DNA from: Aeromicrobium erythreum
GTDB lineage: Bacteria; Actinomycetota; Actinomycetes; Propionibacteriales; Nocardioidaceae
DNA: 64,000 bases
Direction: 5' to 3'
Assembly (NCBI RefSeq): GCF_001509405.1
Contig: NZ_CP011502.1
Span: 558,001 to 622,000 of the forward strand
Shown here: one piece after another, positions 6,082 through 33,766 of the stretch
Layout of the letters: every line of letters starts with the position of its first letter
How positions within the stretch are numbered: position 1 is the first letter of the stretch
The notes under the pieces: generated by a model
Seen by the model: the letters and a program-made list of their open reading frames with translations, nothing else
Databases searched by the model: none
Told to the model about the DNA's origin: nothing
Position numbers and translations under genes: made by a program

Positions 6082-6157
6082 TGGTACCCCCTACGGGATT
6101 CGAACCCGCGCTACCGCCTTGAAAGGGCGGCGTCCTGGGCCGCTAGACGAAGGGGGC
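6082..6157 (-). tRNA. tRNA-Glu (UUC)
   Basis: Reading the minus strand, a full cloverleaf is present: acceptor GCCCCCU pairs with AGGGGGU (terminal G-U pair), anticodon stem CCGCC/GGCGG encloses CUUUCAA with anticodon UUC, and the T arm is GCGGG-UUCGAAU-CCCGU. Discriminator A followed by an encoded CCA gives 76 nt. It is transcribed toward the dehydrogenase-aldolase operon, 229 bp away. Confidence 0.97.
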
Positions 6158-6238
6158 GCGGCGGACCCAGCATACGGGTGGCGGGCCCCGACGGCCTGCA
6201 CGCCCGGGTCCCCACCGGCCCTCGGGCAGGATGGGGGC

Positions 6239-6589
6239 GTGGTGGAGATGAGCGAGGACCGGTTCGCCGAGCTGGTCGAGGCCGCGTTCGCGCAGGTGCC
6301 GCAGGAGCTGACCGCGCTGCTCGACAACGTCGTGCTGTTCGTCGAGGACGACGCACCCGCCGACGACCCCGACCTGCTCGGTCTCTACGACGGGGTGGCC
6401 CTCACCGAGCGCGACACCGCCTACGGTGGCGTCCTGCCCGACCGGATCATGATCTTCCGTCGACCGACCCTCGCGATCTGCGAGACGGAGGAGGAGGTCG
6501 TCGAGGAGGTCGGCATCACGGTGGTCCACGAGATCGCCCACCACTTCGGCATCGACGACGAGCGTCTGCACGAGCTCGGCTATGCGTAG
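6239..6589 (+). CDS. Small zinc metallopeptidase family protein
   Basis: 116-aa member of the actinobacterial small zincin family (PF06262 type). Ends VVHEIAHHFGIDDERLHELG, with the HExxH zinc motif and a downstream acidic cluster. Starting at GTG 6239 gives MVEMSEDRFAELV; a CAGGAT hexamer sits exactly six bases upstream and there is no Shine-Dalgarno, so a leaderless start is favoured over the internal ATG at 6248. The last 8 bp overlap the pirin gene. Physiological substrate is unknown for the family. Confidence 0.85.
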   Translation: MVEMSEDRFAELVEAAFAQVPQELTALLDNVVLFVEDDAPADDPDLLGLYDGVALTERDTAYGGVLPDRIMIFRRPTLAICETEEEVVEEVGITVVHEIAHHFGIDDERLHELGYA

Positions 6590-7244
6590 CGAGGTGCGCC
6601 GCGCGGGCGACCGGTACGTGAGCGAGGGCGACGGCGTCCGGACCCTGCACTCGTTCTCCTACGGCATCCACTACGACCCCGCCAACACGGGCTTCGGCGC
6701 CGTCGTGGCCGTGAACGAGGAGGTCGTCGACCCGGGACGCGGGTACGCCGAGCACCGGCACAGCGACGTCGAGATCGTCACCTGGGTGCTCGAGGGCGAG
6801 CTCGCCCACCGCGATACGACGGGGACCCACGGCACTGTGCGCCCCGGTACGGCGCAGCGGCTGAGCGCCGGCGGCGGTGCGCGGCACGAGGAGCTGAACG
6901 CCTCGGACGTCGAGTCGCTGCGGTTCGTCCAGACGATGCTCCGCTCGCGGCACGCGTCGGCGCCGGAGTACGCGTCGCTCGACGTGCCGACGGGTCCCGG
7001 CCTGCACGCGGGCGTCACGTTGCACGCCGATGCGGAGCTGCTCGTCGCCCGGCCGAGCGTCGACGCGCCCCTGACCGTCCCCGCGTCGCCCGCCCTCCTC
7101 GTGCACGTGACGCGCGGCTCCGTGGAGGTGGCGGGAGCGCGGCTCGGCCCCGGCGACGCGCTGCGGGCCGAGGAGGTCGAGGACGACGTCGTGCTGGTGG
7201 GCGACGGCGAGGCGCTCGTGTGGCGGCTCGGCGCCGCGACCTGA
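6582..7244 (+). CDS. Pirin family protein
   Basis: 220-aa bicupin. The N-terminal cupin carries EHRHSDVEIVTWVLEGELAH and AGGGARHEEL, matching the pirin metal-binding pattern (two His, then His/Glu). Family members include quercetin 2,3-dioxygenases such as E. coli YhhW; the physiological substrate in actinobacteria is unknown. Starts 8 bp before the end of the zincin gene, so the two are probably cotranscribed. Confidence 0.85.
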   Translation: MRSEVRRAGDRYVSEGDGVRTLHSFSYGIHYDPANTGFGAVVAVNEEVVDPGRGYAEHRHSDVEIVTWVLEGELAHRDTTGTHGTVRPGTAQRLSAGGGARHEELNASDVESLRFVQTMLRSRHASAPEYASLDVPTGPGLHAGVTLHADAELLVARPSVDAPLTVPASPALLVHVTRGSVEVAGARLGPGDALRAEEVEDDVVLVGDGEALVWRLGAAT

Positions 7245-7347
7245 CGACCCGGCTTCAGGACAGTCCGGTGAGAGCTGGGCCGTGAGAGCTGAGCCACAGT
7301 AGTTGACGTTTGCAACCTCCGGGTGGCGTCTGGAAAAAGGCCGCACT

Positions 7348-7353
7348 TAGGCT
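7348..7353 (+). promoter_or_regulatory. -10 hexamer (TAGGCT) of leaderless tmsA-like gene
   Basis: TAGGCT followed by six bases and the ATG at 7360. No good -35 is seen 17-18 bp upstream. Just upstream (7270-7305) the motif GTGAGAGCTG is directly repeated twice. Confidence 0.5.
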
Positions 7354-7359
7354 GAGGTC

Positions 7360-8721
7360 ATGGCTGACGTCATGAAGGGGTGGACCGAGCACCATCGCGC
7401 CGTCGACCGTCTGCTCGCCTCCTACGCGGCGATCCCGGCCGGATCGCCGGTGCGGCTGGCGAAGCGGACGAGCAACCTGTTCCGACCGCGTGCCGCGACC
7501 GACGCGCCGGGGCTCGACGTCACCGGGCTCGACGGCGTCGTCGCGCTCGACGTCGACGCGCGCACGGCGGACGTGCAGGGCATGTGCACCTACGAGGACC
7601 TCGTCGACGCGACCCTGCCGCACGGGCTCATCCCCTACGTCGTGCCGCAGCTGCGCACCATCACGCTCGGCGGCGCGGTCACCGGCCTCGGCATCGAGTC
7701 GACGTCGTTCCGCAACGGCCTCCCGCACGAGTCGGTGCTGGAGATGGACGTGCTCACCGGGTCGGGCGAGGTCGTCACCTGCCGACCCGGCGACGACCTC
7801 TTCGACGCCTTCCCGAACTCCTACGGCAGCCTCGGCTACGCCACCCGCCTGCGCATCCGGCTCGAGGCCGTCCCGCCGTACGTCGCGCTGCGCCACGTCC
7901 GCTTCGACGACGCCAAGCAGGCGGCGCAGGCCCTCGCCGACGTCACCGAGACCCAGCAGTGGCACGGCGAGCCGGTGCACGGCCTCGACGCCACCGCGTT
8001 CACGCCCACCGAGGTCTACGTGACGCTCGCGCGGTTCACCGACGAGCCGGGCCCGACGTCGGACTACGCGGGCCAGGACGTCTACTACCGCTCGCTGCAG
8101 CGTCGCGAGACCGACCGGCTGACCATGTACGACTACCTGTGGCGCTGGGACACCGACTGGTTCTGGTGCTCGGCCGCGTTCGGGGCCCAGCAGCCCCTCG
8201 TGCGTCGGCTCTGGCCGCGCCGCTGGCGTCGCTCCGACGTCTACCACCGCCTGGTCTCCCTCGACACGCGCGTCGGGCTGAGCAGGCTGCTCGACCGGGT
8301 CAAGAAGGTCCCCGGTCGCGAGCGCGTCATCCAGGACGTCGAGGTCCCCGTCGACGCCGTGCCGGCCTTCCTCGAGTGGTTCGACGCCGAGGTGGGCATG
8401 CGACCGGTGTGGCTGTGCCCGCTGCGCACCACCCGCGCCTGGGCCGGCTACCCGCTGGCCCCCGGCGAGACCTACGTGAACCTCGGCTTCTGGGGCACGG
8501 TCGTCGTGCCGGCCGGGACGCCCGAGGGTGCCGTGAACCGACGCATCGAGGAGCACGTGCACACCCTCGGCGGCCACAAGTCCCTCTACTCCGAGGCCTT
8601 CTACGACGAGGACACCTTCGCCCGGCTCTACGGCACCGCCGCGCTCGACGCGGTGCGCGCCGTCCACGACCCCGAGGGGCGCCTCAGCTCCCTGTACGAG
8701 AAAGCGGTGAGGAACTCATGA
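7360..8721 (+). CDS. tmsA: FAD-binding oxidoreductase, tuberculostearate-type (TmsA/BfaA-like)
   Basis: 453-aa flavoprotein of the PCMH/GlcD-like FAD-binding oxidoreductase family: VVPQLRTITLGGAVTGLGIE, then NGLPHESVLEMDVLTGSGE, and NSYGSLGYATRLRIRL. Pairing with an immediately following cyclopropane-fatty-acid-synthase-like methyltransferase is the hallmark of the 10-methyl fatty acid (tuberculostearic acid) system, in which this partner reduces the 10-methylene intermediate with NAD(P)H. The stop overlaps the methyltransferase ATG (ATGA). Pathway identity rests on the pairing; a plain FAD-linked oxidase is the alternative. Confidence 0.8.
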   Translation: MADVMKGWTEHHRAVDRLLASYAAIPAGSPVRLAKRTSNLFRPRAATDAPGLDVTGLDGVVALDVDARTADVQGMCTYEDLVDATLPHGLIPYVVPQLRTITLGGAVTGLGIESTSFRNGLPHESVLEMDVLTGSGEVVTCRPGDDLFDAFPNSYGSLGYATRLRIRLEAVPPYVALRHVRFDDAKQAAQALADVTETQQWHGEPVHGLDATAFTPTEVYVTLARFTDEPGPTSDYAGQDVYYRSLQRRETDRLTMYDYLWRWDTDWFWCSAAFGAQQPLVRRLWPRRWRRSDVYHRLVSLDTRVGLSRLLDRVKKVPGRERVIQDVEVPVDAVPAFLEWFDAEVGMRPVWLCPLRTTRAWAGYPLAPGETYVNLGFWGTVVVPAGTPEGAVNRRIEEHVHTLGGHKSLYSEAFYDEDTFARLYGTAALDAVRAVHDPEGRLSSLYEKAVRNS

Positions 8722-30407: not shown

Positions 30408-30878
30408 ATGCTCCGCACGATGATGACGTCGAAGATCCACCGCGCCACGATCACGCAGGCCGACCTGCACTACGTCGGCTCGGTGACCGTCGACGCCGAC
30501 CTGCTCGACGCCGCCAACCTGCTCCCCGGCGAGCTCGTGCACATCGTCGACATCGACAACGGTGCCCGGCTCGTCACCTACACGATCGCGGGCGAGCGCG
30601 GCTCCGGCGTGATCGGCATCAACGGTGCCGCCGCGCGGCTGGTGCACCCGGGCGACCTGGTGATCCTCATCGCCTACGGCCAGATGGAGGACGCCGAGGC
30701 GCGCGAGTTCCAGCCGAGCGTCGTGTTCGTCGACTCCGAGAACCGCGTGATCGGCACGGGCTCCGACCCCGCCGAGGCACTGCCGGGCTCCGGTCTCGTC
30801 CGTGGTGACGTCGTCGAGAACCCGCTCGTGGCGCACGGCGGCGCTGCGGGGTCGCAGGCGGTGGGGGCGGCCCGGTGA
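30408..30878 (+). CDS. panD: Aspartate 1-decarboxylase proenzyme
   Basis: 156-aa pyruvoyl enzyme making beta-alanine. The self-cleavage site is YVGSVTVD with Gly24-Ser25, and [15 protein letters not shown] plus [20 protein letters not shown] are conserved. The C-terminus is about 30 residues longer than E. coli PanD, ending in a Gly/Ala-rich tail, as in many actinobacteria. GTGA overlap with coaX. Confidence 0.95.
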
Positions 30879-31651
30879 CCCTGCTGGCGCTTGACGTCGG
30901 CAACAGCCAGTCCGTCATCGGCGCGTTCGACGGCGAGCGTCTCGTCGAGCACTGGACCGTGTCGTCGCAGACGCAGCGGACCGCCGACGAGTGGCACCGG
31001 CTGGCGCACGGGTTCGTGCGCGCCGCTGGTCTGGCCGACGTGGAGGCCGTGGCGATGTGCTGCACGGTCCCGTCGATCCAGGTCGAGCTGAAGGCGATGC
31101 TCGAGCGCTACTACGCGGGCCTGCCGGTCTCGATCGTCGGCCCCGGCGTGAAGACGGGCATCCCGATCCACACCGACAACCCGCGGGAGGTCGGTGCCGA
31201 CCGCATCGTCAACGCGCTCGCCGCGGCCGAGGTGTACGGGGGGCCGGCGGTCGTGGTCGACATGAACGGCACCGCGACGATCTTCGACGTCGTCGACGAA
31301 CGGAACCGCTATGTAGGGGGTGCCATCGCGCCGGCGGTCGAGCTGTCGTTGGAGGCCCTGGCCCGCCGCGGCGCGCAGCTGCGCGCCGTGGAGCTGGCGG
31401 TGCCGCGCGACGTCATCGGCAAGAACACCGTCGAGGCGGTGCAGTCGGGCGCGGTCTACGGCTTCGCGGGCCTGGTGGACGGGATGGTCGACCGCATCAT
31501 CGAGTCGCTGGGGGCCGACCCCGACGACGTCGCCGTGATCGCGACCGGCGCCTACGCGGACGTCGTGCTGGACCACTGCACGAGCATCACCACGCGCGAC
31601 CCGTGGCTGACCCTCACCGGTCTGCGTCTGGTGCACGAGAAGAACCACTGA
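30875..31651 (+). CDS. coaX: Type III pantothenate kinase
   Basis: 258-aa kinase starting CoA synthesis from pantothenate. N-terminal [16 protein letters not shown] is the ATP phosphate loop; [18 protein letters not shown] and [19 protein letters not shown] are family-typical. The second phosphate loop reads [15 protein letters not shown], where most CoaX proteins have VVDFGTATTFD or similar, so Phe is replaced by Met-Asn with one extra residue. GTG start overlapping the panD stop. The gene ends 14 bp before the repeat array. Confidence 0.92.
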
Positions 31652-31664
31652 CCCCCAGCGGTGG

Positions 31665-32893
31665 GTCTCGCTGGTCGAGTAGCGGTAGATCTCGCTGGTC
31701 GAGTAGACGGGTCCGGCGAGGGACGAGCCTGGGCCCGGCGTATCGAGACCACTCTGGGCTGTCGCTGGGGGTTGGCTTGCGCTGGGCTGTTGCCGGGTGG
31801 TCTCGATACGTCAGGACGAGCTCGCTGGCGCTCGCCGTCCTGACTACTCGACCAGCGGTGGGTCTCGTTGGTCGAGTAGCGCGGAGCCGCGACGAAGGAG
31901 CGTGCTCCGGGCGTATCGAGACCACTCCACGCGGTCGCTGGGGGCTGGTCCGCGCTGGGCTGTTGCCGGGTGGTCTCGATACGTCAGGACGTGCTCGCTG
32001 GCGCTCGCCGTCCTGACTACTCGACCAGCGAGACCTCCCGCTGGTCGAGTAGCGCGGAGCCGCGACGAAGGAGCGTGCTCCGGGCGTATCGAGACCACTC
32101 CACGCGGTCGCTGGGGGCTGGTCCGCGCTGGGCTGTTGCCGGGTGGTCTCGATACGTCAGGACGTGCTCGCTGGCGCTCGCCGTCCTGACTACTCGACCA
32201 GCGAGACCTCCCGCTGGTCGAGTAGCGCGGAGCCGCGACGAAGGAGCGTGCTTCGGGCGTATCGAGACCACTCCACGCGGTCGCTGGGGGTTGGCTCGCG
32301 CTGGGCTGTTGCCGGGTGGTCTCGATACGTCAGGACGTGCTCGCTGGCGCTCGCCGTCCTGACTACTCGACCAGCGGTGGGTCTCGCTGGTCGAGTAGGC
32401 CGACCGGCGACGGTGGAGCTCGGTCGGGCGTATCGAGGCCACTCCAAGCGGTCGCTGGGGGTTGGTTCGCGCTGGGCTGTTGCCGGGTGGTCTCGATACG
32501 TCAGGACGTGCTCGCTGGCGCTCGCCGTCCTGACTACTCGACCAGCGGTGGGTCTCGTTGGTCGAGTAGCGCGGAGCCGCGAGGGACGAGCGTGCTCCGG
32601 GCGTATGGAGACCAGTCCACGCGGTCGCTGGGGGTTGGCCCGCGCTGGGCTGTTGCCGGGTGGTCTCGATACGTCAGGACGTGCTCGCTGGCGCTCGCCG
32701 TCCTGACTACTCGACCAGCGAGACCTCCCGCTGGTCGAGTAGCGCGGAGCCGCGACGAAGGAGCGTGCTCCGGGCGTATCGAGGCCACTCCACGCCGTCG
32801 CTGGGGGTTGGCCCGCGCTGGGCTGTTGCCGGGTGGTCTCGATACGTCAGGACGAGCTCGCTGGCGCTCGCCGTCCTGACTACTCGACCAGCG
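31665..32893. repeat. Array of seven ~173-bp composite inverted-repeat units
   Basis: The element GGTCTCGATACG starts at 31799, 31972, 32145, 32318, 32489, 32662 and 32835, giving periods of 173, 173, 173, 171, 173 and 173 bp. Each unit has two hairpins in opposite orientation. Form A: box GCTGGTCGAGTAG, variable stem-loop, box CGTATCGAGACC. Form B: the reverse boxes around a constant stem TCAGGACG/CGTCCTGA. The ~60 bp between A and B (ending GCTGGGCTGTTGCCGG) is also conserved. Open frames crossing it are translation artefacts, since 173 is not divisible by 3. It separates coaX from the TetR gene. Resembles BIME/REP-type intergenic repeats, but no REP-associated transposase is nearby. Confidence 0.92.
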
Positions 32894-32974
32894 GAGTGTT
32901 CCGCCGGGACCCTGTCGTGCTCCTGTGCCGATGCTCAGGTCGTGGGTCCCACTACACCGTGGCACGATCCCCCC

Positions 32975-33766
32975 ATGCCCTCGACGCCCTCTCGGCGCGG
33001 CACGCTGTCGCGCCGCACGATCGCGGAGGCTGCATTGCAGCTGATCGACGAGGAGGGCGTGGGCGCGGCCTCGATGCGGGCGATCGGCAAGCGGCTCGGG
33101 GTCGAGGCGATGAGCCTGTACAAGCACGTCGGCACGCGCGACGACCTCCTCGACGCCGTCGTCGACCTGGTGGTCGCCGAGCTGGACGCCGACCCCGAGG
33201 TGCTGCGGACGGCCGAGCACGGCTGGCGCGACTACCTCGAGCGCCTGGCGCGCGGCGTGCGCCGCTACGCCCTCGCCCATCCGCACGCCTTCCCGGTGGT
33301 GGCCACGCGCCCGTCGGAGGCTCCGTGGATGAACCCGCCCCTGCGCTCACTGGCGTGGATCGAGTCCGTCCTCGAGGCGCTGGAGGCGGAGGGGTTCGAC
33401 GACGACGAGGTCGTGTTCGCCTACCGCTCGTTCAACAGCTTCCTGCTCGGCTACCTGCTGATGGAGACGGGTGCGCGCACCCTGCGCGACCCGAAGGACG
33501 GCGACGGGTCGTTCGGCGCGGGGGCCGACGCGTCGGAGGCGGTCCCTGGCGGCCTGTCGCCGACCCGTGACGCCGACCAGCAGGACGCCGTGGCGGAAGC
33601 GTCGACGCCGGAGCAGGTGATCGACCCCGCGGGCATGGTCGACGAGGGGACCTATCCGACGATCCACCGCCACGCCGCCCGGCTCGCTGCCGACCGCTAC
33701 GCCGAGGAGTTCGAGCGAGCGCTGGCGGAGATGCTCGACGGGATCGCCTCGCGCCTGGCGGAGTGA
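32975..33766 (+). CDS. TetR-family regulator
   Basis: 263-aa regulator. N-terminal helix-turn-helix (about residues 12-55): LSRRTIAEAALQLIDEEG, ASMRAIGKRLGVEAMSLYKH; the C-terminus fits the tetracycline-repressor-like ligand domain (YRSFNSFLLGYLLMETGAR). A ~50-residue acidic, low-complexity insertion (about 175-225) interrupts it. CACGAT lies six bases before the ATG with no Shine-Dalgarno, suggesting a leaderless start. The operator-like palindromes at 33840-33879 just downstream suggest it controls the csbD pair. Confidence 0.88.
   Translation: MPSTPSRRGTLSRRTIAEAALQLIDEEGVGAASMRAIGKRLGVEAMSLYKHVGTRDDLLDAVVDLVVAELDADPEVLRTAEHGWRDYLERLARGVRRYALAHPHAFPVVATRPSEAPWMNPPLRSLAWIESVLEALEAEGFDDDEVVFAYRSFNSFLLGYLLMETGARTLRDPKDGDGSFGAGADASEAVPGGLSPTRDADQQDAVAEASTPEQVIDPAGMVDEGTYPTIHRHAARLAADRYAEEFERALAEMLDGIASRLAE

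Follow-up and report, generated by a model that had tools for sequence, protein, structure and literature searches.

The array between coaX and a tetR-like gene of Aeromicrobium erythreum belongs to a genome-wide family of hairpins with covarying stems, fixed spacing, and presence or absence at orthologous sites. We give a probability of roughly 50% to the reading that this array arose by tandem amplification from a REP/BIME-like hairpin element that is itself non-autonomous and has a DUF222-HNH gene of the 13E12-repeat type as its autonomous partner. In several lineages, hairpins lie at a fixed distance from multi-copy DUF222 genes, and the linker within the arrays resembles the sequence upstream of the DUF222 gene. 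Array orientation, moreover, follows replication direction. We infer that the HNH protein moves the hairpins, that a single-strand step is involved, and that the gene-bearing element came first, with the arrays derived from it.

The window (the whole 64,000-nt stretch analyzed, from contig NZ_CP011502.1) contains the array at 31660–32894. The seven units of 173 bp described in the initial annotation are real: Tandem Repeats Finder reported 31681–32894, with a period of 173, 7.0 copies and 91% matches, and the GGTCTCGATACG box occurs exactly where it had been placed, at 31799, 31972, 32145, 32318, 32489, 32662 and 32835. Spacings between these boxes are 173, 173, 173, 171, 173 and 173, the 171 arising because the + hairpin of unit 5 is 2 nt shorter. 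The two opposed hairpins proposed for each unit were likewise seen, giving 14 hairpins of strictly alternating orientation. Each unit consists of a + hairpin (GGTCGAG...TCGAGACC), a 48-nt conserved linker, a – hairpin and a spacer of ~10 nt. The + hairpins lie at 31697–31750, 31870–31923, 32043–32096, 32216–32269, 32389–32440 (unit 5, with a different stem), 32560–32613 and 32733–32786. The linkers, on the – strand and all seven reading in the F orientation, lie at 31751–31798, 31924–31971, 32097–32144, 32270–32317, 32441–32488, 32614–32661 and 32787–32834. The – hairpins lie at 31799–31853, 31972–32026, 32145–32199, 32318–32372, 32489–32543, 32662–32716 and 32835–32889. An orphan A box without its hairpin, GCTGGTCGAGTAG (31670–31682, + strand), stands before the first full hairpin.

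The ORF upstream of the array (30875–31651, + strand) bears the name coaX from the initial annotation, and relatives of it were identified through protein matches; its product is 99% identical to the counterpart in Aeromicrobium sp. CnD17-E. The orphan A box and the first full hairpin begin 19 and 46 bp past its stop, respectively. Downstream, the array stops 146 bp short of the predicted start of a gene (33035–33766, + strand) whose product matched PF00440, PF02909 and PF13305, as expected of the TetR-type regulator originally named there. Inspection of the sequence revealed no T-run after the window hairpins. In Aeromicrobium sp. CnD17-E (L009), a DUF222-HNH gene (6156–7487) lies between the coaX array and tetR; it is absent in the window.

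The ends of each hairpin are fixed (GGTCGAG...TCGAGACC), and the stem between them is variable yet complementary. Across 281 relaxed matches in the A. erythreum genome, from a search that itself favors box-like sequences, the GGTCGAG positions were 96–99% conserved and the TCGAGACC positions 92–99%. Most copies have GTAG 5' of the stem, and covariation with the B box is seen at the T, A and G of this motif; over the same matches, TAG is the least conserved stretch of the A box (83–86%). For 100 distinct cores of this genome, the Watson–Crick fraction over the first seven pairs was 0.80, versus 0.48 in a control with halves exchanged (sd 0.024, maximum 0.558 of 500). Stems from other genera also exceeded their control (0.639 versus a maximum of 0.598). 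Those from other Aeromicrobium gave 0.600, under the control maximum of 0.616, so stem covariation is not shown in that set alone.

A second hairpin family, GGTTGAG[GC]AG...TCTCGAAACC, occurs in 15 of 393 genomes (control 0). Relative to the GGTC family, the C-to-T change in its left box is paired with a G-to-A change in the right box. Among 315 distinct hairpins, the outer pair GGT[Y]/[R]ACC was Watson–Crick in 291 (shuffle maximum 276) and the GAG[X]AG/CGT[x]TCGA position was paired in 246 (shuffle maximum 201); the three inner positions were paired in 241–246, against shuffle maxima of 201–212, these shuffles being of a kind that does not keep relatedness. As modeled, the hairpin would have an outer stem (GGTY/RACC), an internal loop (GAG/TCGA), three pairs with a bulged G, and then the variable stem.

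The A. erythreum chromosome is a single contig of 3,629,239 bp that opens with dnaA, dnaN, a RecF/SMC-type gene and gyrB (by Pfam matches). It contains 261 exact hairpin cores, 130 on the + and 131 on the – strand, and no match to the reversed pattern. The 12-mer box was found 142 times on the + and 149 times on the – strand, and the two-box composite 118 and 107 times; read backwards, both patterns gave 0/0. Since these controls are empty genome-wide, the window array is not a product of chance. The gap from + to – hairpin in the window is 48 nt in 7/7 cases, and that from – to + hairpin, measured between GGTCGAG boxes, is 16 nt in 6/6. Nearly all other arrays of this genome that were read, at sites among the matches listed, hold the same 48/16 geometry; the exceptions are L062, L071 and single odd gaps. 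The period (about 158–173 bp) is therefore set mainly by hairpin length.

Of 393 genomes sampled from the class, 21, A. erythreum included, carry the exact core; they belong to 6 of 137 genera, three in its own family and three in one other family (f39). In one of the 21 (G235), the only match lacks a clear stem and is probably due to chance. Within a single genus (g9), the number of core copies ranges from 0 to 290. The longer composite matched in 7 of 58 genomes, again including A. erythreum. Arrays of G022 have the same boxes with other gaps (7–8/47 in L081; 14/19–22 in L082 and L083), and the linker and geometry are thus lineage-specific. Other Aeromicrobium carry lone doublets of two inverted hairpins 12–19 nt apart (L084–L086). 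We also saw the exact core in 25 stretches of viral contigs (L122–L146), which may be host flanks of proviruses. A phage or plasmid origin of the array was rejected, as a 681-base query revealed no similar DNA in the phage and plasmid collections. Assignment to an Rfam family was also rejected; the sole match, ar7, scored 17.3 bits against a gathering score of 60.

Arrays lie in gaps between genes, as judged by a custom codon-usage script for gene prediction. Identical boxes scattered at random inside genes, named in the initial annotation as a sign against a dedicated element, were not what we found: at up to 3 mismatches, 0 of 24 clusters in A. erythreum lie inside predicted genes, and 1 of 24 overlaps a predicted gene end by 9 bp. 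Single weaker matches with 4 mismatches do occur inside genes and were taken as chance. At least one gene 3' end faces 22 of the 24 clusters, within 80 bp in 21 of these 22. Distances from clusters to start codons are 70–269 bp, with one at 34. When five more clusters are added, 9 of 29 lie between convergent genes, 4 between divergent and 16 between tandem genes; the background of 399 gene pairs comprises 63 convergent, 61 divergent and 275 tandem pairs. In two f39 genomes, hairpins at L092, L113 and L114 seem to fall within long ORF predictions of 1010 and 866 aa, which were called by a crude score and may be spurious.

Arrays differ in length among relatives, which supports the turnover (recent amplification or gene conversion) that the initial annotation read from the homogeneity of the units. 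One site holds 15 hairpins in A. erythreum, 4 in G065, 2 in G028 and 0 in G018. A second junction holds 25, 8 and 8 in A. erythreum, G028 and G065, respectively, although lengths in the latter two may be understated because both are draft assemblies. Among the five relatives read, G018, G010 and G015 have no hairpins at either junction, and in G018 ~750 bp of other sequence takes the place of the second array. At the coaX site, hairpins are present in 1 of 17 relatives fetched (L009), the remaining 16 lacking them by the hairpin pattern.

Among 93 copies of the 48-nt linker that were read, 84 of them distinct, the sequence is conserved and directional; within each array all copies point the same way, except for one unit in L076. 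Of the arrays at 0.05–2.22 Mb, 12 of 13 read F, the exception being L065, and all nine at 2.42–3.16 Mb read N (L290 counted once). With the terminus assumed at the midpoint, and with counts that cover part of the genome, replichore 1 has 10 F and 1 N arrays and replichore 2 has 2 F and 9 N (p = 0.0019). When the four arrays linked to DUF222 are set aside, the split becomes 8:0 and 1:9 (p = 0.0004). The predicted gene strand switches at about 1.8–2.1 Mb, which places the two F arrays at 1.86 and 2.22 Mb at or beyond the switch.

Genes for DUF222 proteins, to which Pfam assigns no function, occur in 47 of 49 genomes of the genus, mostly in multiple copies, and in 15/15 genomes of two families searched. 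In A. erythreum, 4 of the 24 clusters (L060, L065, L066 and L069) adjoin DUF222 genes of 435–451 aa. The DNA of these four genes, which were found starting from the arrays, is 86–90% identical, with the identity starting in the hairpins. Hairpins also lie at near-constant distances from DUF222 genes in other genomes, upstream in most lineages. In G277, 259–266 bp separate the hairpin end from the DUF222 start in 8 of 10 copies read. The hairpin is 100–101 bp upstream in 5/5 copies of G028 and 99–101 bp upstream in 2/5 of G065, where two more stand at 168 and 227 bp. G414 has a hairpin 178–183 bp upstream in 3/6 copies, and contig ends cut short two of the three that lack one; at L182, a seventh locus, an exact hairpin stands 178 bp before the gene. 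One locus each in G022 (L201/L243) and G213 (L186) has exact upstream hairpins. In G018 the hairpin is downstream, 75–79 bp after the DUF222 stop in 4/8 copies.

For comparison, 8 of 87 control genes in G277 and 2 of 87 in G018 have a hairpin within 450 bp. Fisher tests gave 3e-6 for the 8/10 DUF222 copies of G277 and 2e-5 for 5/8 in G018, the fifth G018 copy being L207, whose hairpin at +440 counts as within 450 bp and was excluded from the fixed-distance class. The G277 loci and most of those from G018 were picked without knowledge of hairpins, whereas four of the five G028 loci and L211 (G018) were picked knowing that hairpins were nearby. Two loci for which no gene was predicted, L235 and L244, were left out of the linkage count, though L244 has upstream hairpins. 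The extended count of 52 loci omits L191 and L205, which are the same loci as L237 and L238. Seven of the 52 were flagged; we accepted L182, L186, L201 (= L243) and L202 (= L217), and regarded L029, L183 and L204 with doubt. L075, where a single B box follows a DUF222 stop at 28 bp, was not scored as linked. Constant distance does not amount to many independent events, because copies within one genome share ancestry, and the case for DUF222 genes as partners draws on lineages of one family (Aeromicrobium plus g9).

Most of the DUF222 copies that were read stand apart from hairpins. In A. erythreum, 7 of 11 have none within 450 bp, and among the 30 top-scoring DUF222 loci of the genus hairpins were found at one, about 1 kb away. 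We saw no exact linked hairpin at the few loci read from G363 (0/2), G193 (0/2), G060 (0/3) and G303 (0/2); G349 and G162 gave 0/2 each, with one doubtful match in each. G270, with 239 hairpins, has a sole DUF222 gene, which is unlinked (0/1).

At linked loci, the hairpin and the gene share more than proximity. In 12 pairs from G277, the shared sequence begins in the hairpins and ends 4–11 bp after the DUF222 stop; at L223, a G277 locus without a hairpin, it begins just inside the place of the hairpin. G277 pairs its DUF222 genes with a covarying hairpin type of its own, GGTT...AACC. In A. erythreum, the sequence upstream of the four linked genes agrees with the linker consensus at 23–24 of the first 27 positions and then diverges, the match starting after the last + hairpin. 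Of the two ends that a MITE would share with an autonomous, gene-bearing element, one is seen in common between the arrays and the DUF222 upstream regions of this genome, comprising the hairpin and these linker positions. Linker direction equals gene direction in 10/10 linked arrays with an oriented linker (four from A. erythreum, five from G028, one from G065). Such sharing of the gene's end would be expected of an internal-deletion derivative, although it is a pattern that a model of target preference can also produce.

One clean comparison of a filled and an empty site is available. Compared with the G018 locus L209, the orthologous place in G000, G028 and G065 is missing 1,685 bp, with 3 bp in their stead. 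The difference lies at what looks like the stop codon of the gene upstream, and TAGG is found at both junctions, with no target duplication established from this comparison. A similar search at L210 yielded no usable pair of flanks. Just past the DUF222 stop at L217–L225 (G277), most right ends read TAGG(C/T)CGA(C/T)C. The reverse complement of these ends is faintly like the A box and is possibly a degenerate second end. By eye, a strong, unrelated hairpin immediately precedes the shared sequence in three of six G018 copies (L206, L207 and L209), as though the G018 DUF222 element landed directly behind host terminators. Upstream of DUF222 in L237, L238 and L239 (G414), TCGAACTGGTGTACGA resembles the mycobacterial LexA/SOS box, as would be in keeping with the reported SOS control of 13E12 genes. 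The source behind the statement on SOS control and mobile-element character of the M. tuberculosis 13E12 genes is said to be Davis 2002.

Products of the linked genes matched PF02720 above the gathering score in A. erythreum (L060, L065, L066, L069), G028, G018, G065, G277, G414 and G022. Matches to the HNH families PF01844/PF13391 reached 15.5–18 bits in L009, L217 and L237, below the cut-offs of 21.4/21, and neither L065 nor L211 gave an HNH match; reading by eye, we saw an HNH-like Cys/His pattern in the sequences inspected. An NCBIfam search returned nothing near cut-off, a search for PDB relatives of one such protein gave just three matches (E 0.057–0.28), and no DUF222 relatives were confirmed in viral contigs. 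At L119 (G303), found from its hairpin, a 474-aa ORF beside the hairpin has no PF02720 match and is akin to DUF222 proteins by BLASTP (26–28%, E below 1e-20).

We propose the following scheme. The hairpin, with its fixed outer boxes, fixed internal loop and variable complementary stem, would be one end of the DUF222-HNH element, and the array unit (+ hairpin, linker, – hairpin) would carry this end without the gene. On single-stranded DNA exposed at the replication fork the hairpin would fold, and the HNH protein would recognize or cut the folded form. Repair or strand transfer might then copy either the whole gene element or the hairpin module alone, with copies entering short intergenic gaps just past stop codons. 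Unequal recombination between units would later alter array length. We tentatively suggest that this represents a class of bacterial mobile element in which the spreading agent is an HNH-type DUF222 nuclease, in place of a Y1 or DDE transposase, and carries both its own gene and the non-autonomous hairpins of the element's ends to new sites via single-stranded DNA at the fork; in its general form this idea is possible, with the odds somewhat against it. If true, 13E12/DUF222 genes would be the missing engines of actinobacterial REP arrays.

Other explanations account for parts of these data. The hairpins could be an orphan REP-like family moved by host replication and repair or by another enzyme, with DUF222-HNH genes inserting at hairpin edges that serve as targets rather than ends. 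Hairpin-rich genomes without linked DUF222 genes at the loci read would fit this, as would the coaX site of L009, where a different DUF222 gene, missing from A. erythreum, lies beside the array. There is also published precedent in the CGTC-tagged REPs, which apparently have no dedicated transposase (PMC3733652). It accounts less well for fixed distances and homology starting at the hairpin in copies at different places, for the hairpin type that G277 genes have to themselves, and for the coupling of linker and gene orientation in all ten arrays, and we regard it as somewhat unlikely. Alternatively, the element may be useful to the host as a bidirectional terminator, a 3'-end protector or a polar chromosome-organizing site, held at gene ends by selection. 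The abundance of clusters within 80 bp of gene 3' ends, the convergent contexts (9/29 clusters versus 63/399 background pairs), the polarity with replication and the conserved pairing all point in this direction. Yet the convergent excess is modest, the hairpins lack a following T-run, and the family is patchy among close relatives, with empty sites, which makes such a role improbable as the explanation.

That the conserved fold acts as RNA, for instance as a structured regulatory or guide-like RNA of the DUF222-HNH gene, seems very improbable. Its position about 100–266 bp upstream of the gene in several lineages would suit an RNA, and G-T exceeds A-C in the stems of A. erythreum (54:26). Elsewhere, however, the asymmetry between strands does not recur (3:11 in other genera, 3:5 in other Aeromicrobium); the G018 hairpin is downstream, and no Rfam family was recovered. 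Least credible of all, to the point of being negligible, are classical GTAG REPs mobilized by a RAYT whose gene was lost or missed, even though GTAG precedes the stem in most copies. The initial annotation saw no REP-associated transposase near the array, and this holds genome-wide: Y1_Tnp (PF01797) was found neither in A. erythreum alone nor in a set of 49 genomes that includes 26 with hairpins; the control of the search was positive in 5 of 14 named genomes. RAYT-driven REPs were rejected on this ground. The TAG of GTAG is, in addition, less conserved (83–86%) than GGTCGAG (96–99%). A published survey reports that Actinobacteridae carry only subclass 1.1 (IS200-type) members, with which the absence of Y1_Tnp from the 49 genomes agrees (PMC6006769). 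In short, the amplified hairpin element with a DUF222-HNH partner is the reading that we prefer, and the earlier interpretation stands as regards architecture, turnover and absence of a transposase; the genome-wide family, the replication polarity and the DUF222 link lay beyond it.

REP repeats are usually explained by RAYT transposases. Given that the relatives of RAYTs found in Actinobacteridae by a published survey are all IS200-type (PMC6006769), abundant REP-like arrays in these bacteria need another engine. The tie between hairpins and DUF222 genes gives a large protein family a testable role, and provides a natural setting in which to study how arrays amplify and insert with replication polarity. 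Multi-copy, mobile-like 13E12 genes and transposase-less REPs are already in print (PMC5005354; PMC3733652). In the literature searched, which covered few subscription papers, we found no description of the hairpin family or of its DUF222 link. Even if the linkage alone holds, a REP-like family of which we met no description there is gained.

The comparison with BIMEs made in the initial annotation was right in architecture: the hairpins are inverted in alternation, intergenic and of high copy number. In structural terms, A. erythreum has 261 exact cores, alternating with near-fixed gaps, and 24/24 clusters that are not inside genes. Like GTAG REPs and BIMEs (PMC3733652; PMC8266576), the hairpins are short palindromes of high copy number that lie between genes, in most cases behind a gene, alternate in orientation and have conserved bases 5' of the stem. 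Unlike REPs with a RAYT/TnpAREP, the hairpin-bearing genomes have no Y1 transposase; in place of the 4-nt GTAG tag there are about 15 fixed outer bases, and the arrays have a conserved 48-nt linker and a link to some DUF222-HNH genes. REPINs are paired, inverted REPs, and the lone inverted doublets of other Aeromicrobium resemble them; here, however, there is no RAYT partner, and in A. erythreum the doublets are chained by the linker. Integron attC sites also join fixed boxes with variable stems. The CGTC REPs have a different tag, and the available text places them mainly in alpha-proteobacteria and mentions no linked nuclease (PMC3733652). As in 13E12/REP13E12 of Mycobacterium tuberculosis, compared by description only, the hairpin-linked genes are PF02720. 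Available text names REP13E12/HNH endonuclease/DUF222 as one repetitive category (PMC10589994) and describes multi-copy, SOS-regulated 13E12 genes with mobile-element characteristics (PMC5005354); in contrast to the loci studied here, neither text, so far as available, mentions a hairpin array as partner. Finally, IS200/IS605 elements have hairpins near their ends and target the lagging-strand template (PMC6006769). Both features would have a counterpart here, whereas the encoded protein is DUF222/HNH-like rather than Y1 and the hairpin is seen at one side only.
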